Assembly (NCBI GenBank): GCA_947447825.1
Contig: CANFLL010000015.1
Coordinates: forward strand, 1-55,404
Direction of reading: 5' to 3'
DNA: 55,404 nucleotides
From: Chitinophagaceae bacterium
GTDB lineage: Bacteria; Bacteroidota; Bacteroidia; Chitinophagales; Chitinophagaceae
Shown: in pieces, positions 7,441 to 52,605 of the stretch
Numbering within the stretch: position 1 is the first letter of the stretch
Layout: the number at the start of each line of letters is the position of its first letter
The notes under the pieces: model-generated
Seen by the model: the letters and a program-made list of their open reading frames with translations, nothing else
Told to the model about the DNA's origin: nothing
Database searches by the model: none
Made by a program: the position numbers and the translations under genes

Positions 7441-7870
7441 CTCCGCTAGATACCAAGGGTATCTAAATTCAATCATTAATGATTGCAGCCAGATACCAAC
7501 CGATGTAATTTTAATCATTAATGATCTTGGCTAGATATCAAGGGTATGTAAATTCAATCATTAATGATCTACGCCAGATACCAACCGATGTAATTTTAAT
7601 CATTAATGATCTCCGCTAGATACCAAGGGTATCTAAATTCAATCATTAATGTTCTTCGCCAGATACCAACCGATGTAATTTTAATCATTAATGATCTTCG
7701 CTAGATACCAAGGGTATCTAAATTCAATCATTAATGTTCTTCGCCAGATACCAACCGATGTAATTTTAATCATTAATGATCTCCGCTAGATATCAAGGGT
7801 ATGTAAATTCAATCATTAATGATTGCAGCCAGATACCAACCGATGTAATTTTAATCATTAATGTTCTTAG
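7441..7870. repeat. 42/43-bp palindromic tandem array, copy 1 (five AB pairs)
   Basis: Ten consecutive units alternate strictly between type A (43 bp, head CTAGATACCAAGGGTATCTA) and type B (42 bp, head CCAGATACCAACCGATGTAA). Each ends with the palindrome ATCATTAATGAT or a one-base variant. Unit starts are 7446, 7489, 7531, 7574, 7616, 7659, 7701, 7744, 7786 and 7829, so the pair period is exactly 85 bp. The A head is itself a near-perfect inverted repeat. The same units occur in inverted orientation at 25811-26276. There are no unique spacers, which argues against CRISPR. Confidence 0.95.
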
Positions 7871-7910
7871 CCAGACCTATTTTGTTTTGGATAATGGAGA
7901 GTGGTTGAGA

Positions 7911-8124
7911 ACAGGGCAAACGCATTTAATTTTTTTTATACCACATAGCCACAGTAGGCATATAGATTTTATTACTTCAGGCAGATAAAACGCTTCGCTT
8001 TAAGGTCACATAGCGTTGTAAGCCTGTATATCCCCGTCTATGTGGCCTTAAAGCGAAGCGTTTCCTTACTGAACAGACTATGTGGTATATTTTATCCAAT
8101 TAATTTTAGTGCGTTTGCCCCTGT
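7911..8124. mobile_element. 214-bp long-palindrome MITE-like element
   Basis: The ends are ACAGGG(G)CAAACGCA in inverted orientation. Moving inward, ATACCACATAG pairs with CTATGTGGTAT, and a nearly perfect inner stem (about 7987-8012 with 8037-8062, containing AAACGCTTCGCTTTAAGG) closes on a loop of about 24 bp. There is no coding capacity. The right end abuts, and appears to have truncated, the R1 copy that follows, which suggests insertion into it. Confidence 0.7.
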
Positions 8125-8273
8125 ATTTACCACGAAGTACACTAGGAAAAAAACAAGTACACTAAGGTTAAGAGTCCTCCAATGGTAGTTCTGATGTAAT
8201 AATACAACACAATCCTTGTGTTTTTTGTGGAAGCCTTAGTGAACATAGTGGTTAAATATCCCCTGAATAGTCA
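8125..8273. mobile_element. R1 MITE, copy 2, truncated and inverted
   Basis: This is the reverse orientation of the 167-bp R1 element: it starts at ATTTACCACGAAG and ends with TATCCCCTGAATAGT. The first 17 or so bases of the element are missing where the 214-bp palindrome joins. Internal landmarks such as AATACAACACAATCCTTGTG are kept. Confidence 0.75.
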
Positions 8274-8334
8274 TAAAAAAGTAAATGTATATAGTAGCTA
8301 AAATGAAGGAACATTAAGAAAGATGATTGCGTTT

Positions 8335-9864
8335 TTACTGACTGATAGGTTTACTCCAAAAAATGATGGCATCATTAAACTTTGTAAGTGTATCAATCTG
8401 CCGATGCTTCCTTAGTTCCTTAATGGGCATTATGGCAGGATTAGAAAAATCGTTGGTAAACCATACAATATAATTAGCATCCGACTCATAATAATCTTTT
8501 AAATCGACCTTGTGAACTGGTTCAGGAATGCGCAATGCGGGTAAACCACTATAAAAATATACTGCATCACAGGCATTAGAATAAATTTCTGTATCTGGTT
8601 TAAAGTAAGCAGTATTTCGTTTCAAGAACTGAACAATATCACTATCCTGCCAATCTAACTCTGTGTAACCAGGAATGCCGGCCTCCTTGGTTTGTTGCTG
8701 AAAATCTATGGTTGCCATTGCCTGCTGAAACTGTAAGGACAAATAGATGGAGAACATTAAAAGTGTGATACCTATTTTATTGTATTTACTTTTAAGTTGA
8801 TGATAAAGAGAAGGCAGAAAATAGGTGATCCCTATTAATAGAGGTATATAAGCAGGGGATAATAACCGATTGGTTATTTTTTCATATTTAGAGATGGAGG
8901 CAGTGGTTATTATAAATAATATATAAACAACACTAAACGCAATGGTGATTGTTTGGAATGAAGTCATTTTATGCCACTTTAGGTATCTATATAAAAGTAT
9001 AGACGCAAAAGAGACTATTAGAATTGTGGCGGCTATCAAACAGATAATTGGATTTGTGGCAGGAATATGAAACCACTGCAACAGCGTTTCGCCAAAATAC
9101 TGAAGGTTTAGCCAGAATGGTGTAATGCTTTTTTGCCTAATCCCCGTCATGGTGCCATTCATTCGGTCGTTTCTAATTAAATTTAGCAGCAGCAGGACAA
9201 CTCCTCCTGTGCCAAAAATAACCAAGTGTAAAAGTTTCAAACTCCATTTTACCTTTTTGTGTAGAAATATGAGTAGTAATCCAGTTGCCATGATGCTTAA
9301 ACCTGCAATGCGTGTGTCGCAAGCCAAAGCAGTGAAGAGAGAGGGGAGAAAGAGTGCCTTAAAAGTTGGATGTTTAAGATAAACCCTAATTGATAGTAAG
9401 AACAAACTTATTAATAGCATAAATAATGTCTCGCTCCAAAGCATCGTGAAAACATCTAACAAACAATAACTAATAGGTAGAATACTTAAAATAGCCCATT
9501 TGTACCAATAAACTGTTTTTGAGAGTTGCTGAATGAAGCATCCATATAAATAGATGATGAAAGCAATTAAGGTAGCATTAATTAAGGGGGCAATCAATAG
9601 TACATCTTTAGAAAAGATCCACGAGAGTGTGCCTAGAAAAATGGGGTATCCTGCGGGGAAAATGATTAATGGGTTTTCGTTAAATTCTAGAATACCTTTT
9701 CCTAAGCGAATATTTCGGGCTACTCCAGTATATGAAACTGAATCGGGGGAGATGCCAATTCCATGATAATTAGTGAGCGCATAAATGAAGATTGCACCAA
9801 GAATAGCGGCTATCAGAGAGTCTACATTGTTTTTTAAATTAAGAACATTCCATTCATCTCTCAT
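8335..9864 (-). CDS. GT-C fold membrane glycosyltransferase-like protein
   Basis: This is a 509-residue polytopic membrane protein with about ten to twelve hydrophobic segments and a soluble C-terminal domain (about 400-509). After the first membrane helix comes GIGISPDSVSYTGVARNIRLG; an acidic residue in this first extracytoplasmic loop is the hallmark of GT-C enzymes (ArnT/PMT-like), which move a sugar from a lipid-phosphate carrier in the outer face of the membrane. The family assignment is by pattern, the acceptor is unknown, and the start at 9864 gives the complete first helix. It stands alone: repeats lie downstream and parA is divergent upstream. It could also be a member of a related uncharacterised DUF2029/DUF2142-like group. 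Confidence 0.6.
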   Translation of the reverse strand: MRDEWNVLNLKNNVDSLIAAILGAIFIYALTNYHGIGISPDSVSYTGVARNIRLGKGILEFNENPLIIFPAGYPIFLGTLSWIFSKDVLLIAPLINATLIAFIIYLYGCFIQQLSKTVYWYKWAILSILPISYCLLDVFTMLWSETLFMLLISLFLLSIRVYLKHPTFKALFLPSLFTALACDTRIAGLSIMATGLLLIFLHKKVKWSLKLLHLVIFGTGGVVLLLLNLIRNDRMNGTMTGIRQKSITPFWLNLQYFGETLLQWFHIPATNPIICLIAATILIVSFASILLYRYLKWHKMTSFQTITIAFSVVYILFIITTASISKYEKITNRLLSPAYIPLLIGITYFLPSLYHQLKSKYNKIGITLLMFSIYLSLQFQQAMATIDFQQQTKEAGIPGYTELDWQDSDIVQFLKRNTAYFKPDTEIYSNACDAVYFYSGLPALRIPEPVHKVDLKDYYESDANYIVWFTNDFSNPAIMPIKELRKHRQIDTLTKFNDAIIFWSKPISQ

Positions 9865-10283
9865 TCACTTACTATATATGATGTGGGCTAAGGTAATTGC
9901 TGAGAAACAATTTAACAAAAAATATTATAAAGTGTACAAAGGGAATACTTGCAGTTTTTACTTTGGTGCTTTTTACCAATGAGCAGTAACAAATAGATAA
10001 AGCAAAACTAAATTTACCCACAAATTGATAGATTATAGATTTTGGCAATAATAATAGTCTAGTAATCTTTTACATTTGCCAACTTACGCAATACTGCAAA
10101 AGCAATTACTTTTGACACAGTTGGATTAGATGTTTGGGTATTGATTTTAGTTTACACAGAATAATGAGCTGCTTTATGATGAAAAATATAGCAACTGATT
10201 TCTAAGCAAAACCTAATCGGGACGACTTATCTGATACACAACAATAAAACAACTCAATAAAAAGAGTGTAGAATTTTAATAAA
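9865..10283. other. Divergent intergenic region before parA
   Basis: There is no gene that I can support. Two TAnnTTTG-type boxes on the plus strand, TACATTTG at 10071-10078 and TACTTTTG at 10107-10114, could belong to parA promoters, but neither has a well-spaced -33 TTTG. No parS-like palindrome was seen. Confidence 0.35.
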
Positions 10284-11087
10284 ATGGCAAGAATAATAGG
10301 AATAGCGAATCAAAAGGGCGGTGTAGGAAAAACTACTACAGCAATTAATGTAGCGGCAAGCTTGGCAGTGCTAGAATACAGGACATTGCTTGTGGATGCT
10401 GACCCACAGGCAAATAGCACTACAGGCACAGGCTTCGATTTGCACAATATTACTAGTAGTTTATATGACTGCATGGTGAACAATGTGCGAGCAGAAGATG
10501 TGATACTGAAGAGCGATATTCCACATTTGGATATTATTCCTAGTCATATAGATTTGGTGGGTGCGGAAATAGAGATGATTAATTATCCTAACCGTGAAAA
10601 TGTAATGAAAAACATATTGGCTCCTATTGGCGATCGATATGATTTCATTATTATTGATTGTTCGCCATCTCTTGGGTTAATTACTGTAAACTCTTTAGTA
10701 GCTTCTAACAGTGTAATCGTTCCTGTGCAATGTGAGTTTTTTGCATTAGAAGGATTAGGGAAATTATTAAACACCGTAAAGATTGTGCAAAGCAGATTGA
10801 ACCCTCCTTTACAAATTGAGGGCATTTTGATGACAATGTACGATGGGCGTTTACGTTTGTGTAATCAGGTGGTAAGTGAGTTGAGAAGACACTTTGATGA
10901 TATTGTTTTTGCAACTATCATACATAGAAACACCAAACTGAGTGAAGCACCTAGCGTTGGTAAACCTGTTATTTTGTATGATTCTGATAGTAAGGGAGCG
11001 AACAACTATTTGAACCTTGCAAAGGAAATACTTCAAAAGAACGAAATGACCAAGATGACGAATGAAGAAAGAGTGATTAGCCATTAG
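10284..11087 (+). CDS. parA: ParA chromosome-partition ATPase (Soj-like)
   Basis: This 267-residue protein is the ATPase that moves or positions replicated chromosome origins together with ParB. It has the deviant Walker A motif KGGVGKTT at residues 11-18 (both lysines present), a Walker A' region LLVDADPQANST near residues 37-48, and Walker B IIIDCSPSLG near 124. It lacks the N-terminal HTH domain of plasmid ParA proteins, as expected for chromosomal Soj types. parB follows after 134 bp, then a DUF5683 gene and dapB, a gene order common in Bacteroidota. The C-terminal tail carries a 14-bp repeat that runs across the stop codon. Confidence 0.95.
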   Translation: MARIIGIANQKGGVGKTTTAINVAASLAVLEYRTLLVDADPQANSTTGTGFDLHNITSSLYDCMVNNVRAEDVILKSDIPHLDIIPSHIDLVGAEIEMINYPNRENVMKNILAPIGDRYDFIIIDCSPSLGLITVNSLVASNSVIVPVQCEFFALEGLGKLLNTVKIVQSRLNPPLQIEGILMTMYDGRLRLCNQVVSELRRHFDDIVFATIIHRNTKLSEAPSVGKPVILYDSDSKGANNYLNLAKEILQKNEMTKMTNEERVISH

Positions 11088-11130
11088 TGGTTAGTTATTA
11101 GTGGTTAGTTATTAGTGGTTAGTTATTAGT
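11083..11130. repeat. 14-bp tandem repeat across the parA stop codon
   Basis: Three copies and a part of ATTAGTGGTTAGTT start at 11083; the parA stop TAG (11085-11087) lies inside the first copy. The same wording recurs near 28966 and 31642-31690 between other genes, so it looks like a spreading low-complexity spacer rather than a coding repeat. Confidence 0.8.
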
Positions 11131-11221
11131 AAATTGAGGAAAGAAGAATAGTTTTTAGAAATTAGTTGTGTAAATGTGTTTCCTAAAAGTGATTTACTGA
11201 GGGATAAAGCAATAAAATAAG

Positions 11222-12142
11222 ATGGCATCTTCCAAATTAAAACAAGATTTATTGGGCAAAGGCATACGCTCTTTGTTGAACAATATAGATACAGATCTGC
11301 AGACAACTGCGGGAAAGCTAAAGAATGAAGTGGTGGAGCAAGTAACTACTTCTACTCGTATTGCTTTAGATAATATTTCGGTTAATCCTAAACAGCCTCG
11401 TCGCGATTTTGATGAAACTGCCCTTAATGAGCTTGCGGCATCCATTAAAATACACGACATCATTCAACCGCTTACCGTTACTCAATTAGAGAATGGACAC
11501 TATCAACTAATTGCAGGCGAACGCAGATATAGAGCTAGTAAGATTGCTGGTTTAATAGATGTTCCGGTTTACATTAGACAAGCAAATGACAGTGAATTGC
11601 TGGAACTTGCCTTGCTGGAAAACTTGCAAAGAGAAAACCTGAATGCAGTAGAAATTGGGTTGAGCTATAAGCGTATGATGGACGAACTTAACTTTACCCA
11701 AGAGCAAGTGGCTGAAAGGATGGGGAAAGAACGCAGCACAGTAACCAACTACATTCGGTTATTGAAACTTCCACCAGACATTCTTTTATCTGTTCGCAAT
11801 GGTGGATTAAGTATGGGTCATGCAAGGGCTTTAATAAACATTGATACGGTGGACAAGCAATTGTTTGTTTTCCATGAAATAAAGTCGAAAGAACTGAGTG
11901 TTCGGCAAACAGAAGAATTAGTAAGAAAACTTTATAAAACTGAGAAATCTTCTTCGTCAACGCCAAATACGAATACACTACCTCCTGCTTACAAAAAGAT
12001 AGAAGACAATTTGGCTTCGCATTTTAGTACTAAGGTAAAGATGGTGGTGGGTAAAAACGGCACTGGTAGCATTACATTAGAATACTTCTCATTAGAAGAA
12101 CTGAATAAGATTTTAGATCAGATGCAAGTTGTGGTTAGTTAA
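11222..12142 (+). CDS. parB: ParB chromosome-partition protein
   Basis: This 306-residue ParB/Spo0J-family protein binds parS sites and spreads along DNA as a CTP-dependent clamp. It shows the N-terminal ParB domain (ISVNPKQPRRDFD near residues 46-58), the clamp/CTP motif GERRYRAS near 100, a helix-turn-helix FTQEQVAERMGKERSTV near 158-174, and a C-terminal dimerisation region after 260. The N-terminal 30 residues, with GKGIRSLL, resemble the ParA-interacting end. It lies in an operon with parA upstream and the DUF5683 gene 8 bp downstream. No parS site was found in the window. Confidence 0.95.
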   Translation: MASSKLKQDLLGKGIRSLLNNIDTDLQTTAGKLKNEVVEQVTTSTRIALDNISVNPKQPRRDFDETALNELAASIKIHDIIQPLTVTQLENGHYQLIAGERRYRASKIAGLIDVPVYIRQANDSELLELALLENLQRENLNAVEIGLSYKRMMDELNFTQEQVAERMGKERSTVTNYIRLLKLPPDILLSVRNGGLSMGHARALINIDTVDKQLFVFHEIKSKELSVRQTEELVRKLYKTEKSSSSTPNTNTLPPAYKKIEDNLASHFSTKVKMVVGKNGTGSITLEYFSLEELNKILDQMQVVVS

Positions 12143-12150
12143 TCTCGTGT

Positions 12151-12816
12151 ATGCCGATATACCGTATATTATTACTTATTGTTTTGTTTTGTACGTCAGA
12201 TATGTGTTTGAATGCACAACGTGTTAATAGACAAGACTCTCTTAATAAGATATCTTTAGCTAAAGATTCTTTAAAGGGATACGCTATTAATGATACTAGT
12301 AGTAAGAAGAAACACATTCCTAGAATTGCTACCATCAGATCCGCCATCTTTCCTGGATGGGGGCAAGCATACAACCATGAATATTGGAAGATACCCATTG
12401 TTTGGGCGGCTGTTGGTATACCTATTTATACCTTTTTTTATAATGACAGCTATTATAAAAAAACAAGTTATGCTTATGGCATAAAATATCGGCAATACTT
12501 AAATGCAAGCGACACAGCAGATTTGCATACCATTGACCCTCAACTTAAAAACCTTGACATTTATTCTCTACAGATTTATAGAAATGCTTTTAGAAAAGAT
12601 AGGGACTATTCTATATTGTGGTTTTTTATCCTTTGGGGAGTTAATGTGGTGGATGCAACAGTATTTGCCCATCTGAAAGATTTCGATGTAAGTAGGGATT
12701 TAAGTATTCGTGTTACCCCAAATCTTAATAATATGACAGGTACACCTAGTTTGAGTTTGGCACTGGTAAACAAAAGGAAAGAACATAAAATGAGCAGTTT
12801 AGTATATAAATTTTAA
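12151..12816 (+). CDS. DUF5683 domain protein
   Basis: This 221-residue protein starts with a signal peptide or anchor (about 1-22, ending CLNA). The central part RSAIFPGWGQAYNHEYWKIP followed by a hydrophobic helix is the recognisable DUF5683 core, and a second hydrophobic segment (YSILWFFILWGVNVVDA) follows. The function is unknown. In Bacteroidota this family is regularly found between parB and dapB, exactly as here (8 bp after parB, 5 bp before dapB), so it is co-transcribed with chromosome partition and lysine/peptidoglycan precursor genes; a cell-envelope role is an inference from that position only. Confidence 0.85.
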   Translation: MPIYRILLLIVLFCTSDMCLNAQRVNRQDSLNKISLAKDSLKGYAINDTSSKKKHIPRIATIRSAIFPGWGQAYNHEYWKIPIVWAAVGIPIYTFFYNDSYYKKTSYAYGIKYRQYLNASDTADLHTIDPQLKNLDIYSLQIYRNAFRKDRDYSILWFFILWGVNVVDATVFAHLKDFDVSRDLSIRVTPNLNNMTGTPSLSLALVNKRKEHKMSSLVYKF

Positions 12817-12821
12817 TACGA

Positions 12822-13538
12822 ATGAAGATAGCATTGATTGGTTATGGCAAAATGGGTAAGGCAATAGAAGAAATTGCTGTTGCAAAAGGACATGAAATTG
12901 TTTTAAAGTTAGATATTAGCAACCCTGAGGATTTCACAACTGACAATTTAGCGAAATGCGATGTTGCCATTGAGTTTACGAGTCCGCATAGTGCTGTTGA
13001 AAATTTAAAGAAATGTTTTGCTGCTGGTCTTCCTGTGGTTTGTGGTAGTACAGGATGGCTTGCAAAGTGGGATGAGATAGCCAATGATTGTAACCAAAAT
13101 AATGGGTCGTTGGTTTATGCTAGCAATTATAGCATTGGTGTTAATTTGTTCTTTGAATTGAATACATATCTTGCTAAGTTGATGAATAAATACAGTGACT
13201 ATGAGGTGTCGCTAGATGAAATACATCATACCCAGAAGAAAGATTCTCCAAGTGGAACTGCCATTACTTTGGCAGAACAAGTATTGGCTGGTATTCCTAG
13301 AAAGAAACAATGGGTTAATCATTTGAGCGATAATGAGGATGATTTAGAAATAATTAGTGAGCGTATAGACCCTGCACCAGGTACACACAAAATAAAATAT
13401 CATTCGGCAATTGATGACATAGAAATCATCCACACGGCTCACAATAGGAAAGGTTTTGCTGGTGGGGCTGTGTTAGCGGCTGAGTTTATTGTTGGTAAAA
13501 AAGGTATTTATGACATGAAACAAGTATTGGGGCTATAG
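12822..13538 (+). CDS. dapB: 4-hydroxy-tetrahydrodipicolinate reductase
   Basis: This 238-residue enzyme reduces 4-hydroxy-tetrahydrodipicolinate with NAD(P)H in the lysine/diaminopimelate pathway. It has an N-terminal Rossmann motif GYGKMG (residues 7-12), CGSTGW near 84, and the substrate/catalytic signature EIHHTQKKDSPSGTA near 142-156 with the paired histidines and lysine. The length is at the short end for DapB but usual in Bacteroidota. It is the last gene of the par operon and is followed by a hairpin terminator. Confidence 0.95.
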   Translation: MKIALIGYGKMGKAIEEIAVAKGHEIVLKLDISNPEDFTTDNLAKCDVAIEFTSPHSAVENLKKCFAAGLPVVCGSTGWLAKWDEIANDCNQNNGSLVYASNYSIGVNLFFELNTYLAKLMNKYSDYEVSLDEIHHTQKKDSPSGTAITLAEQVLAGIPRKKQWVNHLSDNEDDLEIISERIDPAPGTHKIKYHSAIDDIEIIHTAHNRKGFAGGAVLAAEFIVGKKGIYDMKQVLGL

Positions 13539-13554
13539 GTGATGAATGGAATTG

Positions 13555-13591
13555 AAAAGCTCTTTTTTAGTTACATTATGGAGCTTTTTTT
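13555..13591 (+). terminator. Intrinsic terminator after dapB
   Basis: AAAAGCTC and GAGCTTTT form an 8-bp stem around an 18-base loop, followed by more T residues, 16 bp after the dapB stop. Confidence 0.65.
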
Positions 13592-13810
13592 AACCGCAAA
13601 GCTTTACGCAAAGAAGATACAAAAGGAGATTTGATTAAGGCAAATCGTTTTACCTTATACAGGCTCACAGATGGGAGTAAGAAAGGTAGTGGGAGTTTTG
13701 TTTGAAGCTAACTATTTGCTTGGGACTTTAAATAAATGATTGCATATTGCAGGATAGAACAATAGCTTAATAAGGTTCACTTTAGAAATAATATATAAAT
13801 AAGATTCACA

Positions 13811-14533
13811 ATGGGAAGAATTTTTGAAGTACGTAAGGCCACCATGTTTGCACGTTGGGATAGAATGGCCAAACAGTTTACCCGTATAGGAAAAGAAATA
13901 GTTATTGCTGTTAAAGCAAGCGGACCAGACCCAGCAACAAACCCCGCACTAAGACGTTGCTACCAGAATGCAAGAAGCGTTGGTATGCCTAAAGATCGTG
14001 TGGAAGCAGCCATTAAAAGGGCGATGGGAAAAGATACCGCAAACTATGAAGAGATACTTTATGAAGGATATGCGCCACATGGTGTAGCATTATTGGTAGA
14101 AACTGCTACCGATAACCACGTGCGTACTGTTGCCAACGTGAAGAGTCATTTCAATAAAGGAAATGGTGCTTTGGGTAATAGTGGAAGCGTAAGTTTTCAA
14201 TTTAAGAAAGTAGGAAGTTTCAAATTAAAGCCAGAAGGATTGAGTCTTGATGATCTTGAACTAGAATTGATAGACCATGGTTTGGATGAGATAGGAGAGA
14301 GCGTTGGTGAAAACGGTGAAGAGATTTTAGTATTACGTTGTGCGTTTACCGACTTTGGTAACTTACAAAAAGCATTGGAAGATAAAAATATTTCTCCTAT
14401 TAGTGCCGAACTAGAATGGATCCCCACAACGACGGTTCCAGTAACTGACGAGCAAGCAGAAGATGTGAGTAAGTTGATTGAGAGATTGGAGCAGGATGAA
14501 GACGTTAATAAGGTGTTCCATAACATGGGATAA
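13811..14533 (+). CDS. YebC/PmpR (TACO1) family protein
   Basis: This 240-residue protein has the family's conserved start ([29 protein letters not shown]), the [31 protein letters not shown] block near residues 40-70, and the [14 protein letters not shown] motif near 83-96. YebC proteins were long annotated as DNA-binding regulators; newer work links them to translation of proline-rich stretches. The N-terminus differs a little from the classic GHSKW start. It stands alone between the dapB terminator and a DCC-family gene. Confidence 0.9.
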
Positions 14534-14587
14534 ACTTACTCATTGACAATTGGTAGTTGATATTGTTCGATTTTATAATTATCAATT

Positions 14588-14983: not shown

Positions 14984-15076
14984 ATATCTGGTATAAAGTA
15001 TTATCAAAACAAGTTTAGTAATTTGATACTAAATGAATTATTATTTTGACTTTAAACCCAGAACTTACAATTCTAG

Positions 15077-15682: not shown

Positions 15683-15685
15683 TCC

Positions 15686-25355: not shown

Positions 25356-25810
25356 AGCAATAAATTTGAAAAGCTTTTTAATAATTTACAAAAAAGTTAA
25401 TTTTGGCTCATATATTATTTTAAGAACCAATTCTGCAATTTTTTTTAATAGGAGATATAACTTGTATTTATTGTTTGGAAAAGTCCTAATTAAACAAAAC
25501 GTGCAAGAAAAAGGATGGTTATTGAGTACAAAAAGAAACAAGAATAATATTTGGGGGAACTTATACCTATGATAAAATGATTTGAATGAAAGGAATGATT
25601 GATTTCCTTGATTACAAGAAATTTCAGCCTATATTCTTTCGCAAACCATTTTCTTTAGAGTATAAAATGGCTTTTGAAGTGTACTTAGTTAATATAATAT
25701 TTTGTGTCGGACTTAGTAATCTTTTGCAAATGACAACATCATGCAATAGGACTCCAAATTTTAAAGTGTACGTAATGAATTTTGCATTCATAGGCTAGAT
25801 GGGTATCAAT
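25356..25810. other. Intergenic region before the second tandem array
   Basis: Short open frames exist here but show no recognisable protein features and have AT-rich, irregular composition. I see no gene. Confidence 0.35.
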
Positions 25811-26276
25811 CGGAGAACATTAATGATTGAAATTACATAGGTTGGTATCTAGCGGAGATCATTAATGATTGAAATTACATAGGTTGGTATCTAGCTGCAA
25901 TCATTAATGATTGAATTTAGATACCCTTGATATCTAGCGGAGATCATTAATGATTAAAATTACATCGGTTGGTATCTGGCTGCAATCATTAATGATTGAA
26001 ATTACATCGGTTGGTATCTGGCTGCAATCATTAATGATTGAATTTAGATACCCTTGGTATCTAGCGGAGATCATTGATGATTGAATTTACATCGGTTGGT
26101 ATCTGGCGGAGAACATTGATGATTAAAATTACATCGGTTGGTATCTGGCTGCAATCATTAATGATTGAATTTAGATACCCTTGGTATCTAGCGTAGATCA
26201 TTGATGATTGAAATTACATCGGTTGGTATCTGGCGGAGAACATTAATGATTGAATTTACATACCCTTGGTATTTAA
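25811..26276. repeat. 42/43-bp palindromic tandem array, copy 2 (inverted, BBA order)
   Basis: Eleven units of the same two types as the array at 7441-7870, in the opposite orientation. Unit starts are 25811, 25853, 25895, 25938, 25980, 26022, 26065, 26107, 26149, 26192 and 26234. The order is BBA BBA BBA BA, giving a higher-order period of 127 bp instead of 85 bp. Each unit keeps an ATCATTAATGAT-type palindrome. A partial unit lies at 25793-25810. Confidence 0.95.
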
Positions 26277-38774: not shown

Positions 38775-39467
38775 TTACACGTTTCCTTTCACCGCCACGG
38801 AAATGGTACTACTCCAGTGACCAATCTGTACGTTTTTGTAGCGATAGATTATCTTATATTTCCAAACTAGTTCTACCCCCAATGCCGGCAATGGAGATTG
38901 GTCAATAAAATCGGCAGCGTTGCTTACATTATTAAAAACAAAGCCTGTCCCCGCATCTTTCCATATTTCAAAGCCATCATAAGCATCTAATTTAGAGTGC
39001 AACATGGGATGTCCGCCACTCATCGACTTCAGCGAAAGGATTGGTGTGCCATTTGCCAATACAGTAGTACTTTCTTCTTCAAAAATACCCAAAGCCTTAG
39101 CTACATCCTCCGTTAGGTTTCCAGAGTTTATGCAATCCTGAATAATGTCTCTAAATAGACCTTCTACGTTTGCATTACAAACTGGCGGAACAACCAGTGG
39201 ATAAACGGTTAAAGTTGGCTTTGCACCCAAAATTTCAGCACCTTTGCCATGACGAATCAAATTTTTATAGCTAGTTACTGAAGAAGAGGTTGTGTGTACC
39301 TTTGTTTGAATATCCAAAATAAAATCCAAATAGGCACTCCCCTTTGCTAGGTCTGTAATTTTTGATGCAATTACCTTCATCTCATCTTTGTGATTAGGAT
39401 ATTCGGCCAGAAAATCTCTTATCTGTTTTGCTAGTTCAATATCACCTTTTTCTACTAATGTTCTCAT
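38775..39467 (-). CDS. Unknown 230-residue soluble protein
   Basis: I do not recognise a family. There is no signal peptide or membrane segment. The N-terminal half is helical and charged (MRTLVEKGDIELAKQIRDFL). The middle has VYPLVVPPVCNANVEGLFRDI, and the C-terminal part (FEIWKDAGTGFVFNNVSNAADF ... VELVWKYKIIYRYKNVQIGH) looks like a beta sandwich such as fibronectin-like or carbohydrate-type domains. It is transcribed alone, ends in two hairpins, and is divergent from the 21-bp array. Codon use is like that of its neighbours. Confidence 0.7.
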   Translation of the reverse strand: MRTLVEKGDIELAKQIRDFLAEYPNHKDEMKVIASKITDLAKGSAYLDFILDIQTKVHTTSSSVTSYKNLIRHGKGAEILGAKPTLTVYPLVVPPVCNANVEGLFRDIIQDCINSGNLTEDVAKALGIFEEESTTVLANGTPILSLKSMSGGHPMLHSKLDAYDGFEIWKDAGTGFVFNNVSNAADFIDQSPLPALGVELVWKYKIIYRYKNVQIGHWSSTISVAVKGNV

Positions 39468-39568
39468 TTTTTTTATTTAATAATAAATTTCAATTCTTTT
39501 AAATGTTTGTGTTTGTGAAGACATTCTATAATTCTGAGGCTTCATTTTTTTTTGCTGAATCTATAAAT

Positions 39569-39778
39569 GGTGTCACTTTACTTTATAGTGGTGTCACTTT
39601 ACTTTCGAGTGACGTCACTTTACTTTCAAGTGATGTCACTTTACTTTCGAGTGACGTCACTTTACTTTCAAGTGATGTCACTTTACTTTCGAGTGACATC
39701 ACTTTACTTTCGAGTGGTGTCACTTTACTTTCGAGTGACGTCACTTTACTTTCGAGTCACGTCACTTTACTTTCCAGA
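39569..39778. repeat. 21-bp tandem array, ten units
   Basis: Ten head-to-tail 21-bp units with consensus GACGTCACTTTACTTTCGAG plus T. At the junctions AGTGACGTCACT is a perfect 12-bp palindrome in several units and has one mismatch in others. Since 21 is divisible by three, all six frames can stay open; the frame from the ATG at 39503 reads heptads VTLLSSD and stops at 39784. In that frame the two commonest changes (TCG/TCA and GAC/GAT) are silent, but Tyr, Gly, Ile and His changes also occur. Translation is unproven. Confidence 0.95.
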
Positions 39779-39800: not shown

Positions 39801-39833
39801 GATAGGGAGGCATACCAAATACGCCTCCCTATC
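39801..39833. repeat. Hairpin after the 21-bp array
   Basis: GATAGGGAGGC and GCCTCCCTATC form a perfect 11-bp stem with an 11-base loop; there is no T-run on either side. Confidence 0.65.
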
Positions 39834-40194: not shown

Positions 40195-40361
40195 GTAACT
40201 ATTCAGGGGATATTTAACCACCAGAGTCACTAAGGCATTCTCCAAGAACACAAGGAGTGTGTTGTATTATTTCTTCAGAACTACCCTTGGTGTACTCTAA
40301 ACCTGAGTGTATTTAGTTTTTTCCTAGTGTACTCGGCAGTAAATAACCACTGAAGAGTTAC
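40195..40361. mobile_element. R1 MITE, copy 4
   Basis: A 167-bp copy with ends GTAACTATTCAGGGG and GAAGAGTTAC. It is flanked by a perfect 8-bp direct repeat, AAGAATTT, at 40187-40194 and 40362-40369. Confidence 0.9.
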
Positions 40362-43997: not shown

Positions 43998-44104
43998 GCT
44001 GTGGTGTTTGCGGCGAAGATAATTTTTAAAGTATTATTCAAGGAAAGAGTAATCCACAATTAGATGCCATATTAGTTTATAGTTTACATTTTCAATAACC
44101 TTGG

Positions 44105-46023: not shown

Positions 46024-46551
46024 TTGAAAACAATTTTATCTAGCCATCAAGTTGCCCTGAGTATTAAACGTCTTGCACATCAGATACTAGAAAATCATAT
46101 TCTATTGCAAGATACCGTTTTGATAGGCTTACAACCAAGAGGCATTTTTTTGAGTGATAAGATTGTTACTGAAATAAAAAATATCATCGATCCCTCTTTA
46201 GTAACTTATGGTAAATTGGATATTACATTTTATCGGGACGATATTCACAAACAAATTCATAATGCAAATCAAACGGATATTCCTTTCAGTATTGAGAATA
46301 AAAAAGTGGTGTTGATTGATGACGTATTATGGACTGGCAGAACAATTCGTGCTGCATTAGATGCACTTTTAGATTTTGGCAGACCTAAAAAAGTGGAATT
46401 ATGTGTACTGATTGACAGAAGATTTAGTAGAGAATATCCCATTCAGGCAGACTACGTGGGTAGGTCTATTGATACTTTCCCTAATCAAAAAGTGATGGTA
46501 TATTTAAATGATAAAATACGTGAAGAAAGCGTTGAACTCTGGGAATCATGA
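46024..46551 (+). CDS. pyrR: PyrR-family phosphoribosyltransferase, TTG start
   Basis: This 175-residue PRTase-fold protein is the pyr regulator/uracil phosphoribosyltransferase. It has KTILSSHQVALSIKRLAHQI at the start, LIGLQPRGIFLSDKI near 34-48, YRDD near 74, and the PRPP loop KVVLIDDVLWTGRTIRAALDAL near 95-116. An in-frame TAA lies directly before the TTG at 46024 and there is no other Met before the conserved region, so TTG is the only possible start. It lies upstream of pyrB (170-bp gap). In Bacteroidota PyrR is not proven to act by RNA attenuation. Confidence 0.93.
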   Translation: MKTILSSHQVALSIKRLAHQILENHILLQDTVLIGLQPRGIFLSDKIVTEIKNIIDPSLVTYGKLDITFYRDDIHKQIHNANQTDIPFSIENKKVVLIDDVLWTGRTIRAALDALLDFGRPKKVELCVLIDRRFSREYPIQADYVGRSIDTFPNQKVMVYLNDKIREESVELWES

Positions 46552-46720
46552 GACTTATAGTTGAAAGTTAAATGTTGAAAGTATAGCGTCGATAGCTGAC
46601 AGTAATAACATCAACTATTGAATCTAAACTTTCCCTCTCTCGACTTTCAATTTTCAATTCTCAATTTTCAACTCTCAATTTACTATTCATAAAGCTGTTT
46701 TCCTTTAACTTCGTTTTTTA

Positions 46721-47650
46721 ATGATACTTTCTACAAAACATTTACTTGGCATTAAGCATCTTACTAAGGAAGATATTCAACTAATTCTTTCTACTGCATC
46801 AGATTTTAAGGGGGTTTTACAAAGGCCTGTGAAAAAAGTTCCATCTCTACGGGACGTAACCATCGTGAATCTTTTTTACGAAAACTCTACCAGAACAAGA
46901 ATGAGTTTCGAATTGGCTGAGAAAAGGTTAAGTGCCGACACCTTAAACTTTGCTGCAAGTAGTTCTTCCGCTGCTAAAGGAGAAACACTTTTGGACACAG
47001 TTCAGAATATTCTTAGCATGAAAGTGGATATGATTGTAATGCGCCATAGTGCAAGTGGAGCTCCACATTTCTTATCAAAGCAAATAGATGCAGCCATCAT
47101 CAATGCTGGCGACGGCATTAATGAACACCCAACCCAAGCATTACTAGACGCTTTTTCGATGGTAGAGAAATTTGGAACGCTAGAAGGATTAAGGGTTGCT
47201 ATTATTGGAGACATCATGCACAGCCGTGTTGCATTGAGCAATATTTATCTCCTCAAAAAGATGGGAGCTGAAGTAATGGTTGCCGGTCCACCAACGCTTA
47301 TTCCCAAATATATAAAAGAAGCCTTAAATGTTCGAGTGGTATATAATGTGAAAGAAGCACTTGAATGGTGCGATGTGGCCAATGTTCTTCGTATTCAATT
47401 GGAGAGACAAAATCAACCGTTATTTTCTTCATTAAGGGAATACAATTTGGCTTATGGCATTACCAGAAAACTGTTGGACAGTATTGGTAAAGAAATTACC
47501 ATTATGCATCCTGGCCCAATCAATAGAGGCGTTGAACTTGATAGCGATGTGGCAGATGGCAGTAACTCAATCATTTTAAATCAGGTAGAAAATGGTGTAG
47601 CGGTTAGGATGGCAGCCTTGTATCTACTCAGACCGCAACACAGCAACTGA
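46721..47650 (+). CDS. pyrB: Aspartate carbamoyltransferase, catalytic subunit
   Basis: This 309-residue enzyme makes carbamoyl-aspartate from carbamoyl phosphate and aspartate. The carbamoyl-phosphate site FYENSTRTRMSFELA (residues 50-64), NAGDGINEHPTQALLDAFSM (near 128-147) and MHPGPINRGVEL (near 265-276) are all present. A TAACTTCG box ends a few bases before the ATG. coaD follows after 79 bp of AT-rich inverted repeat. No pyrI regulatory subunit gene is next to it. Confidence 0.96.
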   Translation: MILSTKHLLGIKHLTKEDIQLILSTASDFKGVLQRPVKKVPSLRDVTIVNLFYENSTRTRMSFELAEKRLSADTLNFAASSSSAAKGETLLDTVQNILSMKVDMIVMRHSASGAPHFLSKQIDAAIINAGDGINEHPTQALLDAFSMVEKFGTLEGLRVAIIGDIMHSRVALSNIYLLKKMGAEVMVAGPPTLIPKYIKEALNVRVVYNVKEALEWCDVANVLRIQLERQNQPLFSSLREYNLAYGITRKLLDSIGKEITIMHPGPINRGVELDSDVADGSNSIILNQVENGVAVRMAALYLLRPQHSN

Positions 47651-47725
47651 TAATTGATAATTGATAATTGACACATGACAATTATCAATTACTAATTGTC
47701 AAATATAAATTATCAATTATCATTT
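47645..47725. repeat. AT-rich inverted linker repeat
   Basis: Tandem TGATAATT units at the left face CAATTATCAATT and AATTATCAATTATC at the right, giving stems across the whole pyrB-coaD gap. The same wording is found at 14538-14587 and 27845-27875. Confidence 0.6.
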
Positions 47726-47729
47726 TATT

Positions 47730-48212
47730 ATGAGTCGTATTTGCTTGTTTCCAGGAACTTTTGACCCCGTTACATTGGGGCATACTGATATAATTGATAG
47801 AGCCTTGCCTTTATTCGATAAAATTTATGTTGGCATTGGCATTAATGCCCTAAAGCATCCGATGTTTTCAGCTGAACAAAGGATGAAATGGTTCAATGAA
47901 ATATATATAAACGACCCCCGTGTGGAATGCGCCATCTATGAAGGCCTAACGGTGCAGTTCTGTAAAAAGATAAATGCTCAATTCATTTTGAGAGGCATCA
48001 GATACGTGAGCGATTTTGAATATGAGAAAACAATTGCAGATGCCAATAGAACATTAGACAGAAGTATTGAAACTGTATTCTTAACTGGCGAACCAAAATA
48101 CACTTCTGTAGCTTCTACAATTGTTCGAGATATTCTTAAAAATGGAGGAAATGCTTCCCCCTTTTTACCACAAGCTGTCATCAACTCTTTGGAAGAAGGA
48201 ATAATGATTTAA
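47730..48212 (+). CDS. coaD: Phosphopantetheine adenylyltransferase
   Basis: This 160-residue enzyme adenylylates 4'-phosphopantetheine in coenzyme A synthesis. It has the nucleotidyltransferase motif FPGTFDPVTLGHTDII (residues 7-22), the FILRGIRYVSDFEYE block near 86-100, and the SSTIVRDI-like TSVASTIVRDI near 125-135. It is probably co-transcribed with pyrB. Confidence 0.96.
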   Translation: MSRICLFPGTFDPVTLGHTDIIDRALPLFDKIYVGIGINALKHPMFSAEQRMKWFNEIYINDPRVECAIYEGLTVQFCKKINAQFILRGIRYVSDFEYEKTIADANRTLDRSIETVFLTGEPKYTSVASTIVRDILKNGGNASPFLPQAVINSLEEGIMI

Positions 48213-48334
48213 TTAATTTTTAGGTATCAAGGCCAACATACACTTTATTTTTACAGCTAGTTAGTGAAGATAATTTCTATGGCGTTTAATTATTCTATAT
48301 GTGATTAGAACCCGTAAATATGTGGCTGTACAAA

Positions 48335-48724
48335 CTATAAATATTTTGCTAAGGTTTCTTTAAACTGTTCTTCTGTAAATGGCTTTAACAGCACCTCATT
48401 AATACCAGTTTGCAAATAGGACTCTATTTCTGAATTAAGAATACTAGCTGTTAATGCAATAATTGGTGTAGTAGCTTTGGTCACATCTGTATGTTCCCTC
48501 AATATTTTTGCCATTGCATTTCCAGGAATCTTAGGAATATGTATGTCTGTTAAAACAATATCATAACTACTTTGGTTGAACTTTTCAATGGCCTCTTCCC
48601 CATCAGTAGCAACGTCGAATTGAATGCCCACCCTTTTGAGAAGTAACGAAAAAAGTTTCACATTCATGATATTATCCTCCACCAACAATGCCCTTTTTGT
48701 GGAGTAATCTATCTTTTTATCCAT
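48335..48724 (-). CDS. Single-domain response regulator
   Basis: This 129-residue stand-alone receiver has the acidic pair in LVEDN (Asp17), the phosphoacceptor Asp60 in DIVLTDIHIP, the switch Thr92 in IALTAS and Lys114 in LLKPF. There is no output domain. It is very similar to the receiver domain at the end of the hybrid kinase gene 24 bp upstream, so it is probably a duplicate that receives or competes for phosphate from that kinase. It is co-transcribed as the second gene. Confidence 0.92.
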   Translation of the reverse strand: MDKKIDYSTKRALLVEDNIMNVKLFSLLLKRVGIQFDVATDGEEAIEKFNQSSYDIVLTDIHIPKIPGNAMAKILREHTDVTKATTPIIALTASILNSEIESYLQTGINEVLLKPFTEEQFKETLAKYL

Positions 48725-48748
48725 TACTAGTTATTTTGTAAAAATTTG

Positions 48749-50923
48749 TTATCCTGCATGGTCTTCGAATAAATACCTTTCTAAAACTGCTTTAAAATCA
48801 GCTTCTTTAAACGGTTTCACTAACAATTCATTAATCCCCATTCTAAAATATTGTTCAGTATTATCACCAATAATACTTGCTGTTAAGGCAACAATTGGTA
48901 AATTATTCTTCCTTATGTCAGTACTTTTTCTAATTATAGCAGCAATCTGATCACCAGTTAACTTAGGCACATTAATGTCGGTCAAAACAATATCGTAGTA
49001 ATTATTTTCAAAAAGGCGAACACCTTCTTCTCCATCTTTAGCTACATCAAAGGAAAGCTGAAGCTTTTTAAGCAAAAGCTTTATCAATAATATATTCATA
49101 TCATTGTCTTCGATTACTAAAGCTTTTTTATCAGAAAAATTGTGCAATTGTTTCGATGGTTCTTCAGCAACCACTTGTGTAGGTTTTTCTTCAGGTTCAA
49201 TCATATAGGGCATTGTAATGCTAAACGTAGAGCCTATGTTTAGCTCACTTTTTACCTGTATTTTCCCTCCTTGCAATTCTGTTAGCATCTTACAAATTGC
49301 CAATCCAAGTCCAGTTCCTCTAATAGCCCTTCTTCCTCCACTTTTTGTATTAGTTGCTTGTGCAAACTCCTCGAAAATAAATCCTAATTGATCTGCTGGA
49401 ATACCCACACCGCTATCTTGTACATCAATTTTAACAACAATCTCTTTGTCGGTTCTAGACAAACTCTTAGCACTAATTTTCACTTTACCTTGTTCTGTGA
49501 ATTTAATGGCATTACTTGTTAAATTGAACAATATTTGTTTAAGCCTAAACGCATCTCCATGCACAAATAAGTCTTTATCAATTTGAATGTCAGACTGCAG
49601 AACAATACTCTTTTTTTGTGCTGCCACCGAGAATGCATATAACACTTCTTCTACTACTTTTTGAACTTTAAAAGGCTGAATGTTTAGCGTTAGCTTTCCT
49701 GCATCTAGTTTAGAGAAATCTAATATATCGTTTACCGTAGTTAACAAATGATCCGATGAAGTTCTAATTGCATTCAAATATCTTTTCTTATCTTGATCGT
49801 ACTCTATGTTATCCAATTGCTCTGTAAACCCAATAATAGAAGTTAATGGGCTTCTTATTTCATGGCTCATGTTGCTAAGAAATCTACTTTTAGTCAACAC
49901 CAATTTTTCTGCGGTTTCTCTCGCCTCAATTATTTCTTTTTCATATTTCATGCTCTTCTTAACATTGTAAATAAGCACAATAACAACAAATATGATAACA
50001 ATATATGACCCCCATGTAAGCAGTGTAATTGTTTGTTTTGCCTCTTTAGCTCTTTCAAGAACTTGATCTTCCTTCTCTTTGCCAGATTCCTCTTGAATGC
50101 CTAACAGCTTTTTCAGGGCATCACTCACTTGATACTGAATAACCAAGTTTACTTGAGCCAATTCTTTTTCATTGTTATCTAATCTTTCTTTTAAGGCAAG
50201 TTCACTGTATCTATACTTATAAAAATCGTCGACATCCTGTTGCGACTGATCTTTTTGGGCATTCATTACATAGCCAGTAGAAGATGAGTTTGTTGTGCTG
50301 GTAGACGCAGATTGAGATGAAGCGTCTTCTTTATTGCCAAATATATCTCCCAACTTTTTAAGGAATACTTTTTTCCTATTTACAGTTGATTGGTTAGTGT
50401 CAACTTGTTGCATTAAGCTGTCATATCCTTTTAAGATGGAATTATTAGACATCCTATACCAATATGGATTGATATAAAACCCACCATTGTTTGCATGTAT
50501 TTTACTGATGCTAATTGAATCAGAAATTCTTTTCAACAAATCTATTGCATCCGAAACTTGAACTTTCTGTTCAATGCCAGCAATAACGGTACTGATTCCC
50601 GAAGTGTCATTGCCTGTTTTTAAAGTAATAAGGTCATTAACGCAAGAGGTTACATGCGATAAATATTTGTTACTATAAAGTGTATCCTTGGTGCTTAAGT
50701 ATAACCTGTAAGCATTTTCAGCTTCTAGCAATTCTTTATTAGTATTTCGCAATATCTCAACACTGCTGTTGTCATTGCTTAGGCTATTGATGTAATTTCT
50801 TAATTGAGCTAAATTTTTAGCATTAAATATATTAAGCAGCAAAACAGCTACTATCACCAATAAACAAACAACTAGTAGAATGATGTTTGAGGCTGAAAAT
50901 TTCGATTTAGGCAAAGAGGTCAT
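48749..50923 (-). CDS. Hybrid sensor histidine kinase
   Basis: This 724-residue membrane kinase has a first membrane helix (about 13-32), an extracytoplasmic region of about 265 residues with CHASE3-like helical character, and a second helix (about 300-322). HisKA follows, with phospho-His354 in FLSNMSHEIRSPLTSIIGF, then an HATPase domain (N box FNLTSNAIKF 466-475, G boxes DSGVGIP and GTGLGLAICK) and a C-terminal receiver with Asp649 in DIVLTDINVPK. There is no HPt domain, so relay needs a partner. The signal is unknown. The single receiver gene lies downstream. Confidence 0.93.
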   Translation of the reverse strand: MTSLPKSKFSASNIILLVVCLLVIVAVLLLNIFNAKNLAQLRNYINSLSNDNSSVEILRNTNKELLEAENAYRLYLSTKDTLYSNKYLSHVTSCVNDLITLKTGNDTSGISTVIAGIEQKVQVSDAIDLLKRISDSISISKIHANNGGFYINPYWYRMSNNSILKGYDSLMQQVDTNQSTVNRKKVFLKKLGDIFGNKEDASSQSASTSTTNSSSTGYVMNAQKDQSQQDVDDFYKYRYSELALKERLDNNEKELAQVNLVIQYQVSDALKKLLGIQEESGKEKEDQVLERAKEAKQTITLLTWGSYIVIIFVVIVLIYNVKKSMKYEKEIIEARETAEKLVLTKSRFLSNMSHEIRSPLTSIIGFTEQLDNIEYDQDKKRYLNAIRTSSDHLLTTVNDILDFSKLDAGKLTLNIQPFKVQKVVEEVLYAFSVAAQKKSIVLQSDIQIDKDLFVHGDAFRLKQILFNLTSNAIKFTEQGKVKISAKSLSRTDKEIVVKIDVQDSGVGIPADQLGFIFEEFAQATNTKSGGRRAIRGTGLGLAICKMLTELQGGKIQVKSELNIGSTFSITMPYMIEPEEKPTQVVAEEPSKQLHNFSDKKALVIEDNDMNILLIKLLLKKLQLSFDVAKDGEEGVRLFENNYYDIVLTDINVPKLTGDQIAAIIRKSTDIRKNNLPIVALTASIIGDNTEQYFRMGINELLVKPFKEADFKAVLERYLFEDHAG

Positions 50924-50994
50924 GCTATATAAAATCGGGTTAATTAATTAGTTGAGGGAACATACCATTTAGATGGTAAATATATTAGAAATTA

Positions 50995-51744
50995 TTAAAA
51001 AATTACATATTCTCCCATAGAATTCACCGTAATCACTGGAAGTTTTTTGTTCAACTCAAAATAATCGAATACTTCTTTGATATTAATGGCAAACTTTTGA
51101 TACAACCTATCATCTTTACTAACCTTTAAAAAATATTCCACACTCTTTTGTACATTATATCTCACAGGAAAAACATGTACTGGAATAAAATCTTGACCAT
51201 CCTGTTTAGCCAATGCTGCTAACAAATAAACTTCTTCCATTGGGTCGTTTTGCAACGGAATACATCCTACTGTTATACAGCTTCCATGAATATAAATATC
51301 TCCTCCTGGCTTAATAGAGTCACTCAATAATTCGTCGGAAGCATTGGGATAGTTTAAACCCAAAGCCAAATGAAATTCGCTTTTAGGTTTAAACTCATTA
51401 ATATAATAAAAACCTTCCGGCACTTGATAATCGCCTTCCACTCTTTTTGGCCCAATCGAACCGCTTAATGCACATACTTTATAGGTTTTAAAAAGTGTAA
51501 ATGCTTCTTTGTTATTATCTCTTATCCATACCTCCAGCTGGCTATCGTATTTAAAACTTCGTACATACATTTGTTTGGGCGGCCATTGAAGTCCTTTCTG
51601 CGCAAACTGACTTTTTAATGAGTCCTCTTTGGTTTTAAAAGCATTTGCAACCCTTGAATAGTTTCTTTGATATTGCAAAAATGTTTGTGCGTTGAGGTTG
51701 TTTATATGAAAAAGTAAAAATAATAGTCCAGCAATGTATCTCAT
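50995..51744 (-). CDS. YkuD-type L,D-transpeptidase (YafK-like)
   Basis: This 249-residue exported protein has a signal peptide (about 1-19, ending LNAQ) and the catalytic region YIHGSCITVGCIPLQND, with His153 and Cys161 of the HGxxxxxGC pattern. GFYYINEFKPKSEFHLALGLNYP before it is typical of the YafK group. It may form or trim peptidoglycan crosslinks or lipoprotein links. A TATTTTTG box ends five bases upstream of the ATG, implying a very short leader or none. It is upstream of the kinase gene, in the same direction but 71 bp away. Confidence 0.9.
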   Translation of the reverse strand: MRYIAGLLFLLFHINNLNAQTFLQYQRNYSRVANAFKTKEDSLKSQFAQKGLQWPPKQMYVRSFKYDSQLEVWIRDNNKEAFTLFKTYKVCALSGSIGPKRVEGDYQVPEGFYYINEFKPKSEFHLALGLNYPNASDELLSDSIKPGGDIYIHGSCITVGCIPLQNDPMEEVYLLAALAKQDGQDFIPVHVFPVRYNVQKSVEYFLKVSKDDRLYQKFAINIKEVFDYFELNKKLPVITVNSMGEYVIF

Positions 51745-52135
51745 GTCTGCAAAAATAGAGTTATTGTAACAATTTATTAATTGAAGAGGGGCATAAAAAA
51801 ATATTGTATTGGCGTAAATGCTTAATGCATCACCGATGATGTAGCGAATGAAGAACAGAAGGAAATGTTACTTAAAAACAAATCACTTCTATTAAACTTT
51901 GGTGTAACAGAGTAGCACTCTAAAATATGAAATTAGTTTTACAACTAAATCTTCATTTGTATTAAATTGAATAAAGATTAAAGTACTTAGATACTGTAAC
52001 TCTTAATATAATGCCAGATATCATCAACCTAAATAATCCATATACTAACTTTTGCCCATGATTTGTTTGAATAGAAGCTTTAGAAACCTAGAACAAAAAG
52101 AAGAATTGATGGAGCAAGACCGACTAGAAAGTTTT
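51745..52135. other. Gene-free spacer
   Basis: Nothing supportable was found apart from the promoter box of the transpeptidase gene at 51750-51757 on the minus strand. Confidence 0.35.
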
Positions 52136-52301
52136 GGTTACCACAGAGTAGCTTTGCCATTAAGTTAACATGGCAAAAGCAAGGGACACAAAGGTTTAAC
52201 TTTTGCCTTTATCATTTCTTAACAAACATTACCATACAATCTTTATGTTCTCTATGTAATCCTTAGTATTACTTGTGGTTAAAATATACCTGAGTAGTAA
52301 C
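52136..52301. repeat. R1-like relic, end variant GTTACTACTCAGG
   Basis: The left end GGTTACCACAGAGTAG and the right end ATACCTGAGTAGTAAC enclose diverged R1 landmarks (GGGACACAAAGG, CCTTAGTATTACTTGTGG). The length is 166 bp, matching R1. Confidence 0.55.
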
Positions 52302-52394
52302 TATTGGCATCAAAAAAAATCTTATTTAATATCATTTCTCACCCTTCTCAGCCCCAAACCCTCATTTTCCTATATACTCCTATATGATATCTCT

Positions 52395-52605
52395 TTCAGT
52401 ATGATACCTACATTTAAATGCATTGGCTTTCTTGCTTGCGATATCATGCCTGAATTTAAATTCAGGCATGATATCGCACGGCAGATGGTACCTGCTTTAA
52501 ATTCAACACCTTTATCCTTATCAATATGGTGCCTGAATTTAAATGCAGGCACCATATTAATAGCGAAATGAAACCTGAATTTAAATGCATGTATAATATC
52601 GCTAT
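52395..52605. repeat. 42-bp palindromic tandem array, five units
   Basis: Five palindromes centred on TTTAAA at 52413, 52455, 52496, 52538 and 52580 lie 41-42 bp apart. The second is a perfect 40-bp palindrome at 52438-52477 (half-site GCGATATCATGCCTGAATTT). The fourth, 52523-52558, has one mismatched pair. The shared core is CCTGAATTTAAATGCAGG. Short frames through the array on both strands read as 14-residue repeats, probably because 42 is divisible by three. Confidence 0.9.

Follow-up and report, generated by a model that had tools for sequence, protein, structure and literature searches.

Intergenic tandem-repeat arrays with a period of 21 bp, or a multiple of it, recur throughout the sampled part of this Chitinophagaceae genome, are associated with particular protein families and differ in period according to the family beside which they lie. 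Tentatively, and with somewhat less than even confidence, array and protein are read here as the two parts of a module whose step depends on the protein and in which the majority of arrays are solitary copies, with a function suggested by sequence and position.

The window, meaning the whole stretch of DNA that was analyzed (55,404 nucleotides), is the entire contig C15 of a 4.65-Mb genome in 187 contigs. By HemN, the nearest named record, at 83% identity, is an uncultured Chitinophagaceae MAG. Exact core spacings confirmed the four arrays of the original prediction, with periods of 21, 42 and 42/43 bp (Table 1). Array 1 carries two dyads per unit, about 21.5 bp apart, and array 3 ends 98 bp from the family A gene, on its upstream side. 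In array 4, which is missing from the TRF output at a minimum score of 40 and was caught by the autocorrelation finder, the arms vary from unit to unit, and direct reading shows long palindromes with unlike arms around 52457 and 52540. Arrays 1 and 2 belong to a single sequence family, in opposite orientation and 87% identical, which leaves three unit sequences in the window and corrects the original description of the units as unrelated. The array 1/2 family has 22 matches, corresponding to 17 places genome-wide by our own count; the array 3 sequence occurs at 5 places in the genome, and that of array 4 has a single other match, which is weak (76% over 60 bases). Searches of the window with Rfam and for tRNAs returned no matches.

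Table 1. Coordinates of the features discussed; positions refer to the window unless preceded by a locus label.
Feature	Location	Strand	Description
Array 1	7440..7875		ten CATTAATG cores, spacing 42,43,42,43...
Array 2	25796..26275		eleven CATT[AG]ATG cores, spacing 42/42/43
Array 3	39565..39777		ten 21-bp units, ten CACTTTACTTT cores, nine spacings all 21
Array 4	52388..52610		five TTTAAA-centred palindromes at 42,41,42,42 bp
Family A gene	38775..39467	-	230 aa, no known family
Inverted repeat, 11-bp arms	39801..39833		past array 3; also at a relative's locus, L202 (direct reading)
7-/14-bp arrays	11055-11130, 46637-46687, 47645-47725		
Second dispersed element	7250-7310, 8110-8270, 40200-40360, 52120-52300, 52830-52960		..CACTAAGG..GTGGTTAAATATCCCCTGAATAG..
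Short repeated open frame	6855-7112; L031:8694-9161	- (both)	NDVWGYDLVTF..LPNLTDRDLPHLDLPTSEKLANQGRINPRH
DUF6261 gene	L030:6409-7179		113.9 bits against PF19775 (cut-off 27)
Protein gene, family not recognised	L003:2154-2858	-	234 aa; an array of the array 1/2 family lies 130 bp away
21-bp array	L197:2180-2380		near one of the genome's five Y1_Tnp matches
Leader	L022:7218-7305	+	
Leader	L040:360-441	-	precedes an array
Leader, further places			12 more in the genus

Other repeats are interspersed with these arrays. A second dispersed intergenic element, present in both orientations, lies close to three of the four arrays, and a 135-bp copy at 90% identity also adjoins an array in L005. A short repeated open frame (Table 1) may represent a dispersed element translated as if it were a gene. 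Arrays with 7- or 14-bp units form a separate, common class, accounting for 29 of the 118 arrays found in the genome sample by best period.

That sample comprised 40 stretches of 20 kb plus the window, or 855,404 of 4,645,965 bases. The array finder, based on autocorrelation with a threshold of 22, returned 475 lag-segments in the genomic sequence, against 0 when run on a single third-order Markov shuffle. From the resulting 118 arrays, 36 with a period below 19 or a span below 80 bp were dropped (mostly 7-/14-bp arrays, but including two short 21-bp ones), and the 82 kept divide into 13 genic and 69 non-genic arrays. The excess at multiples of 21 that the original prediction expected genome-wide was found in this 855-kb sample: 60/69 non-genic arrays have a period that is a multiple of 21 within 1 bp, with period 21 in 31 of them and period 42 in 16. 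Against an expectation of 1/7 the binomial p is ∼3e-41, a calculation that takes no account of relatedness among arrays; the 69 arrays fall into 47 sequence groups when compared by blastn at 50 bits. The 21n arrays have a median span of 214 bp. The period pattern is therefore real, and genome-wide within the part sampled.

The step is 21 bp, and is neither one helical turn nor a heptamer. None of the 69 non-genic arrays has a period of 31-32 or 52-53 bp, so the rule is 21 and not any whole number of turns. Within the 21n arrays, mean identity at lags 7, 10 and 11 is under the shuffled level, and at lag 14 it differs from shuffled by at most 0.03. A 10.5-bp rule was accordingly rejected on the low identity at lags 10 and 11 and the missing intermediate periods, and an origin from 7-bp arrays on the values at lags 7 and 14. 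The proposal that all arrays use whole helical turns thus holds in that periods of 21 and 42 are over-represented among many unrelated units, but does not extend to three and five turns. The gene contexts of the non-genic arrays are mixed, with flanking genes in the same direction in 34 (++/--), -+ in 18 and +- in 12, and with 5 cut by the ends of stretches; a terminator or promoter role was rejected on this distribution.

Palindromes were assessed against a null in which the unit columns were permuted, with z > 2 taken as significant. Dyads are significant in 24 of the 59 arrays tested and fall short of significance in the other 35, so the description of the arrays as palindromic applies to a part of them. 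The dyad profile recurs at 10.5, 21, 31.5 bp and further multiples, a necessary property of any dyad-bearing array with a 21-bp period. Palindrome centres are phased at 10.5 bp in arrays 1, 2 and 3 (R of 0.72, 0.79 and 1.00, respectively), and array 4 yields only 2 centres under a strict dyad test. Because arrays 1 and 2 average 42.3-42.4 bp, they would drift by several bases from end to end at exactly 10.5 bp per turn, and 10.6 bp is a better fit for both. The suggestion that all palindromes lie on one face of the helix is thus upheld as regards the spacing of the centres at multiples of 10.5 bp, but is weakened by the drift of these two arrays. Compensatory changes within dyads are in modest excess, with 136 cells against 102.5 +- 7.4 in shuffles for 53 arrays of this genome, and 106 against 86.1 +- 7.1 for 65 arrays of the two main protein families. 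Hairpin density is about twice that of shuffles (151 vs 73-83; 168 vs 73-92), which is weak evidence since these shuffles break the periodicity.

The association with arrays was examined mainly in two protein families. Family A is defined by the gene beside array 3, and DUF6261 (PF19775) by a gene that adjoins an array of the sample rather than of the window. An array was counted when it ended no more than 300 bp upstream of the gene, under strict and loose variants of the rule; the loci are the best-scoring of each search rather than all matches, and in most cases the start codon is the furthest in-frame ATG. Such an array precedes the gene at 39/52 family A loci and, sampled across Bacteroidota, at 35/49 DUF6261 loci under the loose rule (32/49 under the strict rule). 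Control genes gave 26/515 (strict) and 29/515 (loose) in the same genome and 1/212 in eleven other genera, with p <1e-23 for each comparison of family and control. Within the genus, where family A is multi-copy and has a match in 11/13 genomes, 24/30 loci examined have a 21n array within 300 bp upstream. For DUF6261, 28/30 loci have an adjacent array, and among new loci above the cut-off, taken from 395 genomes drawn across the phylum, 15/19 have one. In the sample, the majority of arrays have no family gene alongside.

The loci that failed this count are of several kinds. Among the 13 for family A, L205 and L217 have less than 200 bp upstream or a contig end, L206 is a broken gene with an array 494 bp from the called start, and L272 and L282 have arrays at 458 and 502 bp; the others are L207, L218, L228, L262, L269, L270, L271 and L280. 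Among the 14 for DUF6261, no array was found at L287, L291, L316, L317, L318 and L325, the array lies on the opposite side of the gene at L292, L299 and L304, and it lies 399-511 bp upstream at L321, L326 and L327. By our own reading L296 and L311 are probably misanchored, a contig end cutting the locus, and were kept as misses.

The period goes with the protein family. A period of 20-22 bp was found in 26/39 family A arrays and 0/35 DUF6261 arrays (p 2e-10), the latter having periods of 40-42, 83 or 123. The same upstream layout was seen for further families, with 3/3 loci in family B, 4/4 in family C where upstream sequence is present, 2/3 in family D and 2/2 in family E. These counts are partly circular, as families B to E were noticed by lying beside arrays, although family C also has an independent example, its gene in L149. 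In families F and G the array lies ∼110-194 bp downstream of the gene. Family G is the sole linked protein found for the array 1/2 sequence (in L003). A relative of the 234-aa protein at L003 is found in L173, again with an array on its 3' side.

Pfam, NCBIfam and PDB sequences gave no match to the family A gene that adjoins array 3. The predicted structure of family A (pLDDT 90, pTM 0.54) combines a helical bundle at the N terminus with a C-terminal sandwich, and in this model the sandwich matches only fibronectin-III-like chains. The DUF6261 model (pLDDT 80) is all-helical and gave no significant Foldseek match, all E values being >0.1. A comparison of the two profiles gave no match, and a relationship between the two families was rejected on this result. 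No recognized nuclease, transposase or DNA-binding domain was found in family A or DUF6261 by models and domain scans, and none of six array-linked proteins has a PHROG or PADLOC match. For families A, C and DUF6261 a single member each was compared with viral contigs, where no relatives were found with a method that detects close relatives only. Plasmids gave no family A match by tblastn and nothing close to the one DUF6261 gene used as query. A viral or plasmid origin was rejected on these negative searches.

Arrays and families alike are restricted in distribution. There are 70 21n arrays of at least 80 bp in the 855 kb of this genome, which extrapolates to ∼380 arrays in the whole, and 28 in 471 kb of twelve genomes of the same genus. 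None occurs in 350 kb of eleven other genera without family A, and 8 occur in 1.2 Mb around 68 more distant HemN loci, a set that includes at least one same-genus record (L081). A further figure, of 11 arrays in 283 kb of family A carriers outside the genus, is biased upwards, since several of those stretches were picked for a family A gene on the contig. Among 244 Chitinophagaceae genomes, family A homologues are present in 18 (11/101 genera, with the array link also found outside the genus), DUF6261 in 9 and family C in 11. Family A co-occurs in 6/9 DUF6261 genomes (p 5e-6) and 8/11 family C genomes (p 2e-8); outside the genus the overlaps are 4/7 and 4/7 (p ∼2e-4 each), some of these genomes being mutually related.

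The array keeps its step and its place, but not its unit sequence. Unit sequences vary from locus to locus among the family A loci of the genus and are clearly alike only among close homologues, with a protein score ratio of at least 0.6. Protein and array similarity are uncorrelated for family A (rho 0.03, 318/1000 permutations as high) and weakly correlated for DUF6261 (rho 0.14, 4/1000 permutations as high).

Several known systems resemble this arrangement. REP/BIME elements are dispersed intergenic palindromic repeats with a RAYT (TnpA_REP) partner at some copies and solitary copies elsewhere. The arrays described here are likewise dispersed and intergenic, with significant dyads in the proportion given above, but they are long, have a fixed 21n step and comprise many unrelated sequences. 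The linked proteins, unlike RAYTs, have no Y1_Tnp match, and no family A Pfam match to Y1_Tnp was obtained. One 21-bp array, in L197, does lie near one of the genome's Y1_Tnp matches (Table 1).

As described in PMC4627078, type III toxin-antitoxin systems (ToxIN, CptIN, TenpIN) have upstream tandem repeats that vary in sequence and length by locus. In these systems the repeat RNAs measure 36 to 45 nt, and a ribonuclease with a Kid-like fold serves as toxin. Family A and DUF6261 genes, too, mostly have tandem repeats immediately in front of them. In contrast to those systems, the step here is 21n and no sense-RNA signature was seen, and no ToxN/Kid-like ribonuclease fold was found in the family A or DUF6261 models. 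TIGR-Tas systems, as described in PMC12045711, have tandem arrays of paired short repeats up- or downstream of one gene, with repeats that vary by locus; the units hold variable 9-nt spacers and the Tas proteins a Nop domain. Arrays beside one associated gene with a locus-specific repeat sequence are shared with that description. Unlike it, the present arrays show no spacer blocks and mixed conservation within units (lag-1 z > 2 in 13/69 arrays), and no Nop domain was found in 26 family A members or in the other array-linked proteins scanned. Prokaryotic satellites of Leptospira and Methanocella are dispersed non-coding tandem-repeat families (PMC6749651), a likeness to the present arrays; their description there, as excerpted, gives no common step and no linked protein, and the words 'helical' and 'Bacteroid' are absent from PMC6749651. 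In layout the closest are type III toxin-antitoxin, REP/RAYT and TIGR, but for each of the three one or more of the defining features tested could not be found here. A word search of open-access full text found no earlier account, and DUF6261 appeared only in one paper, which judging by its title concerns another subject.

The resemblance to type III systems raises the alternative that the array is transcribed and that the repeat RNA binds or controls the protein, or acts as a leader of its mRNA. We regard this as rather unlikely. It would account for repeats lying just upstream of one gene, and the gap between array and start is only 20-37 bp at several family A loci by the called start codons. 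Also in its favor, a TAnnTTTG box is found in only 1/32 family A gaps examined between array and start (9 of 41 loci were skipped). A leader of ∼90 bp is common to ten sequences, namely nine family A loci and one array without a family A gene. Its hairpin covaries, with 3 cells changed on both sides against 0/500 shuffles; a detected array follows in 9/10 sequences, the exception being L207, and by our own reading TAnnTTTG stands ahead of the hairpin in 5/10. Standing upstream of nine arrays, this leader suggests that some arrays are transcribed. However, the leader model is confined to 14 places in 13 genomes, ten of which are its own training set, and TAnnTTTG upstream of arrays in general occurs at chance level (4/34 and 2/34). 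At the leader place in L040 no family A gene was found after the array.

The stems themselves give little sign of RNA. Mismatches on the sense strand, counted on the strongest array of each locus (in a few loci not the nearest), comprise 22 G:T against 52 A:C for family A, unevenly spread over 11 vs 15 arrays, and 15 G:T against 13 A:C for DUF6261. The family A deficit of G:T runs counter to the expectation for a sense RNA, and the sense strand is the more stable one in only 12/35 family A and 16/36 DUF6261 arrays. Strand bias is present, the sense strand carrying more C than G in 27/36 DUF6261 arrays (p 0.004) and more A than T in 24/34 family A arrays (p 0.04). Arrays downstream of the gene in some families also count against an RNA, as does a common 21n step, which is not expected of such RNAs. 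The lack of a G:T excess and of a stabler sense fold, together with arrays in all gene orientations, is as expected if DNA is read, and we lean, without certainty, towards the array being read as DNA rather than RNA.

Fixed-step amplification or copying, selfish or neutral, in which the step would reflect an enzyme and not helical phasing, was the other suggestion of the original prediction and seems slightly less probable again than a repeat RNA. The dispersal of the sequence families to 17 and 5 places, the fast turnover of units, the lack of preference for gene orientation and the fact that most arrays stand alone all fit such a process. The linked proteins nevertheless have no recognized enzyme domain, the genome contains 5 matches to the HUH transposase family, 4 of them above the cut-off, with a strong 21n array near only one of the five loci, and amplification by itself leaves the placement upstream of particular genes unexplained. 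The original prediction invoked a nucleoid or boundary protein binding every array on one helical face, and as stated this is not supported. A common step across many unrelated sequences and dyads at multiples of 10.5 bp would suit such a protein, yet it leaves the pairing with families and the dependence of period on the linked family unexplained, and with no motif common to all unit-sequence families and no three- or five-turn arrays we consider it very improbable. That the arrays are coding heptad repeats, of 7 or 14 codons, is almost certainly wrong: both 21 and 42 are divisible by three, and an open frame is present in many arrays, but periods of 41, 62, 65, 83, 85 and 87 occur, 40-41 is common beside DUF6261, and the 13 genic arrays (42, 72, 72, 99, 108, 126, 132, 153 in four and 156 in two) include one of period 42 and none of 21.

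The reading we favor is the two-part module. The arrays would be its DNA half, and family A, DUF6261 or one of families B to E its protein half, whose gene in most cases directly follows its own array. The step goes with the family, at 20-22 bp (two turns) for most of family A and 40-42 bp (four turns) for DUF6261, and the unit sequence changes as step and place persist. The double-stranded array, with its copies on one face, would be read by the cognate protein as an oligomer or by a factor that works together with it, and copies out of register would then be lost. The solitary arrays, the majority in the sample, would be dispersed copies or target sites. In favor of the module are the 21n excess in 60/69 non-genic arrays, the upstream arrays of family A and DUF6261 against the controls, the family-specific periods, the co-occurrence of families A, DUF6261 and C, the dyads in 24/59 arrays, and the stems and gene orientations that fit a reading as DNA. 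What the data show directly is the 21n period, its dependence on the protein, the association with these families and the narrow distribution; from sequence and position we infer that the proteins may bind the arrays and serve some cellular role, and that they would either read the arrays or make them. Several results weigh against the module. Neither protein model has a recognized DNA-binding domain, most arrays of the sample lack a neighbouring family gene, and significant dyads are missing from 35/59 arrays. Array sequence does not track family A beyond close orthologues, and families F and G have the opposite order. Moreover, 13/52 family A and 14/49 DUF6261 loci have no counted array, and the DUF6261 strand bias and the leader count against it too, the leader suggesting some transcription.

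A broader possibility, which we consider doubtful, is that the arrays represent a new class of module across Bacteroidota, in which unrelated protein families own, and perhaps make or spread, arrays whose step would be a protein-specific ruler of two or four turns, with a freely changing unit sequence, the several hundred solitary arrays of a genome being products or targets. If the module reading is true, DUF6261 and several unnamed families would gain a common context, in which the array in front is a testable partner. Likewise, with repeat spacing fixed but sequence free, a role of helical phasing would become directly testable.
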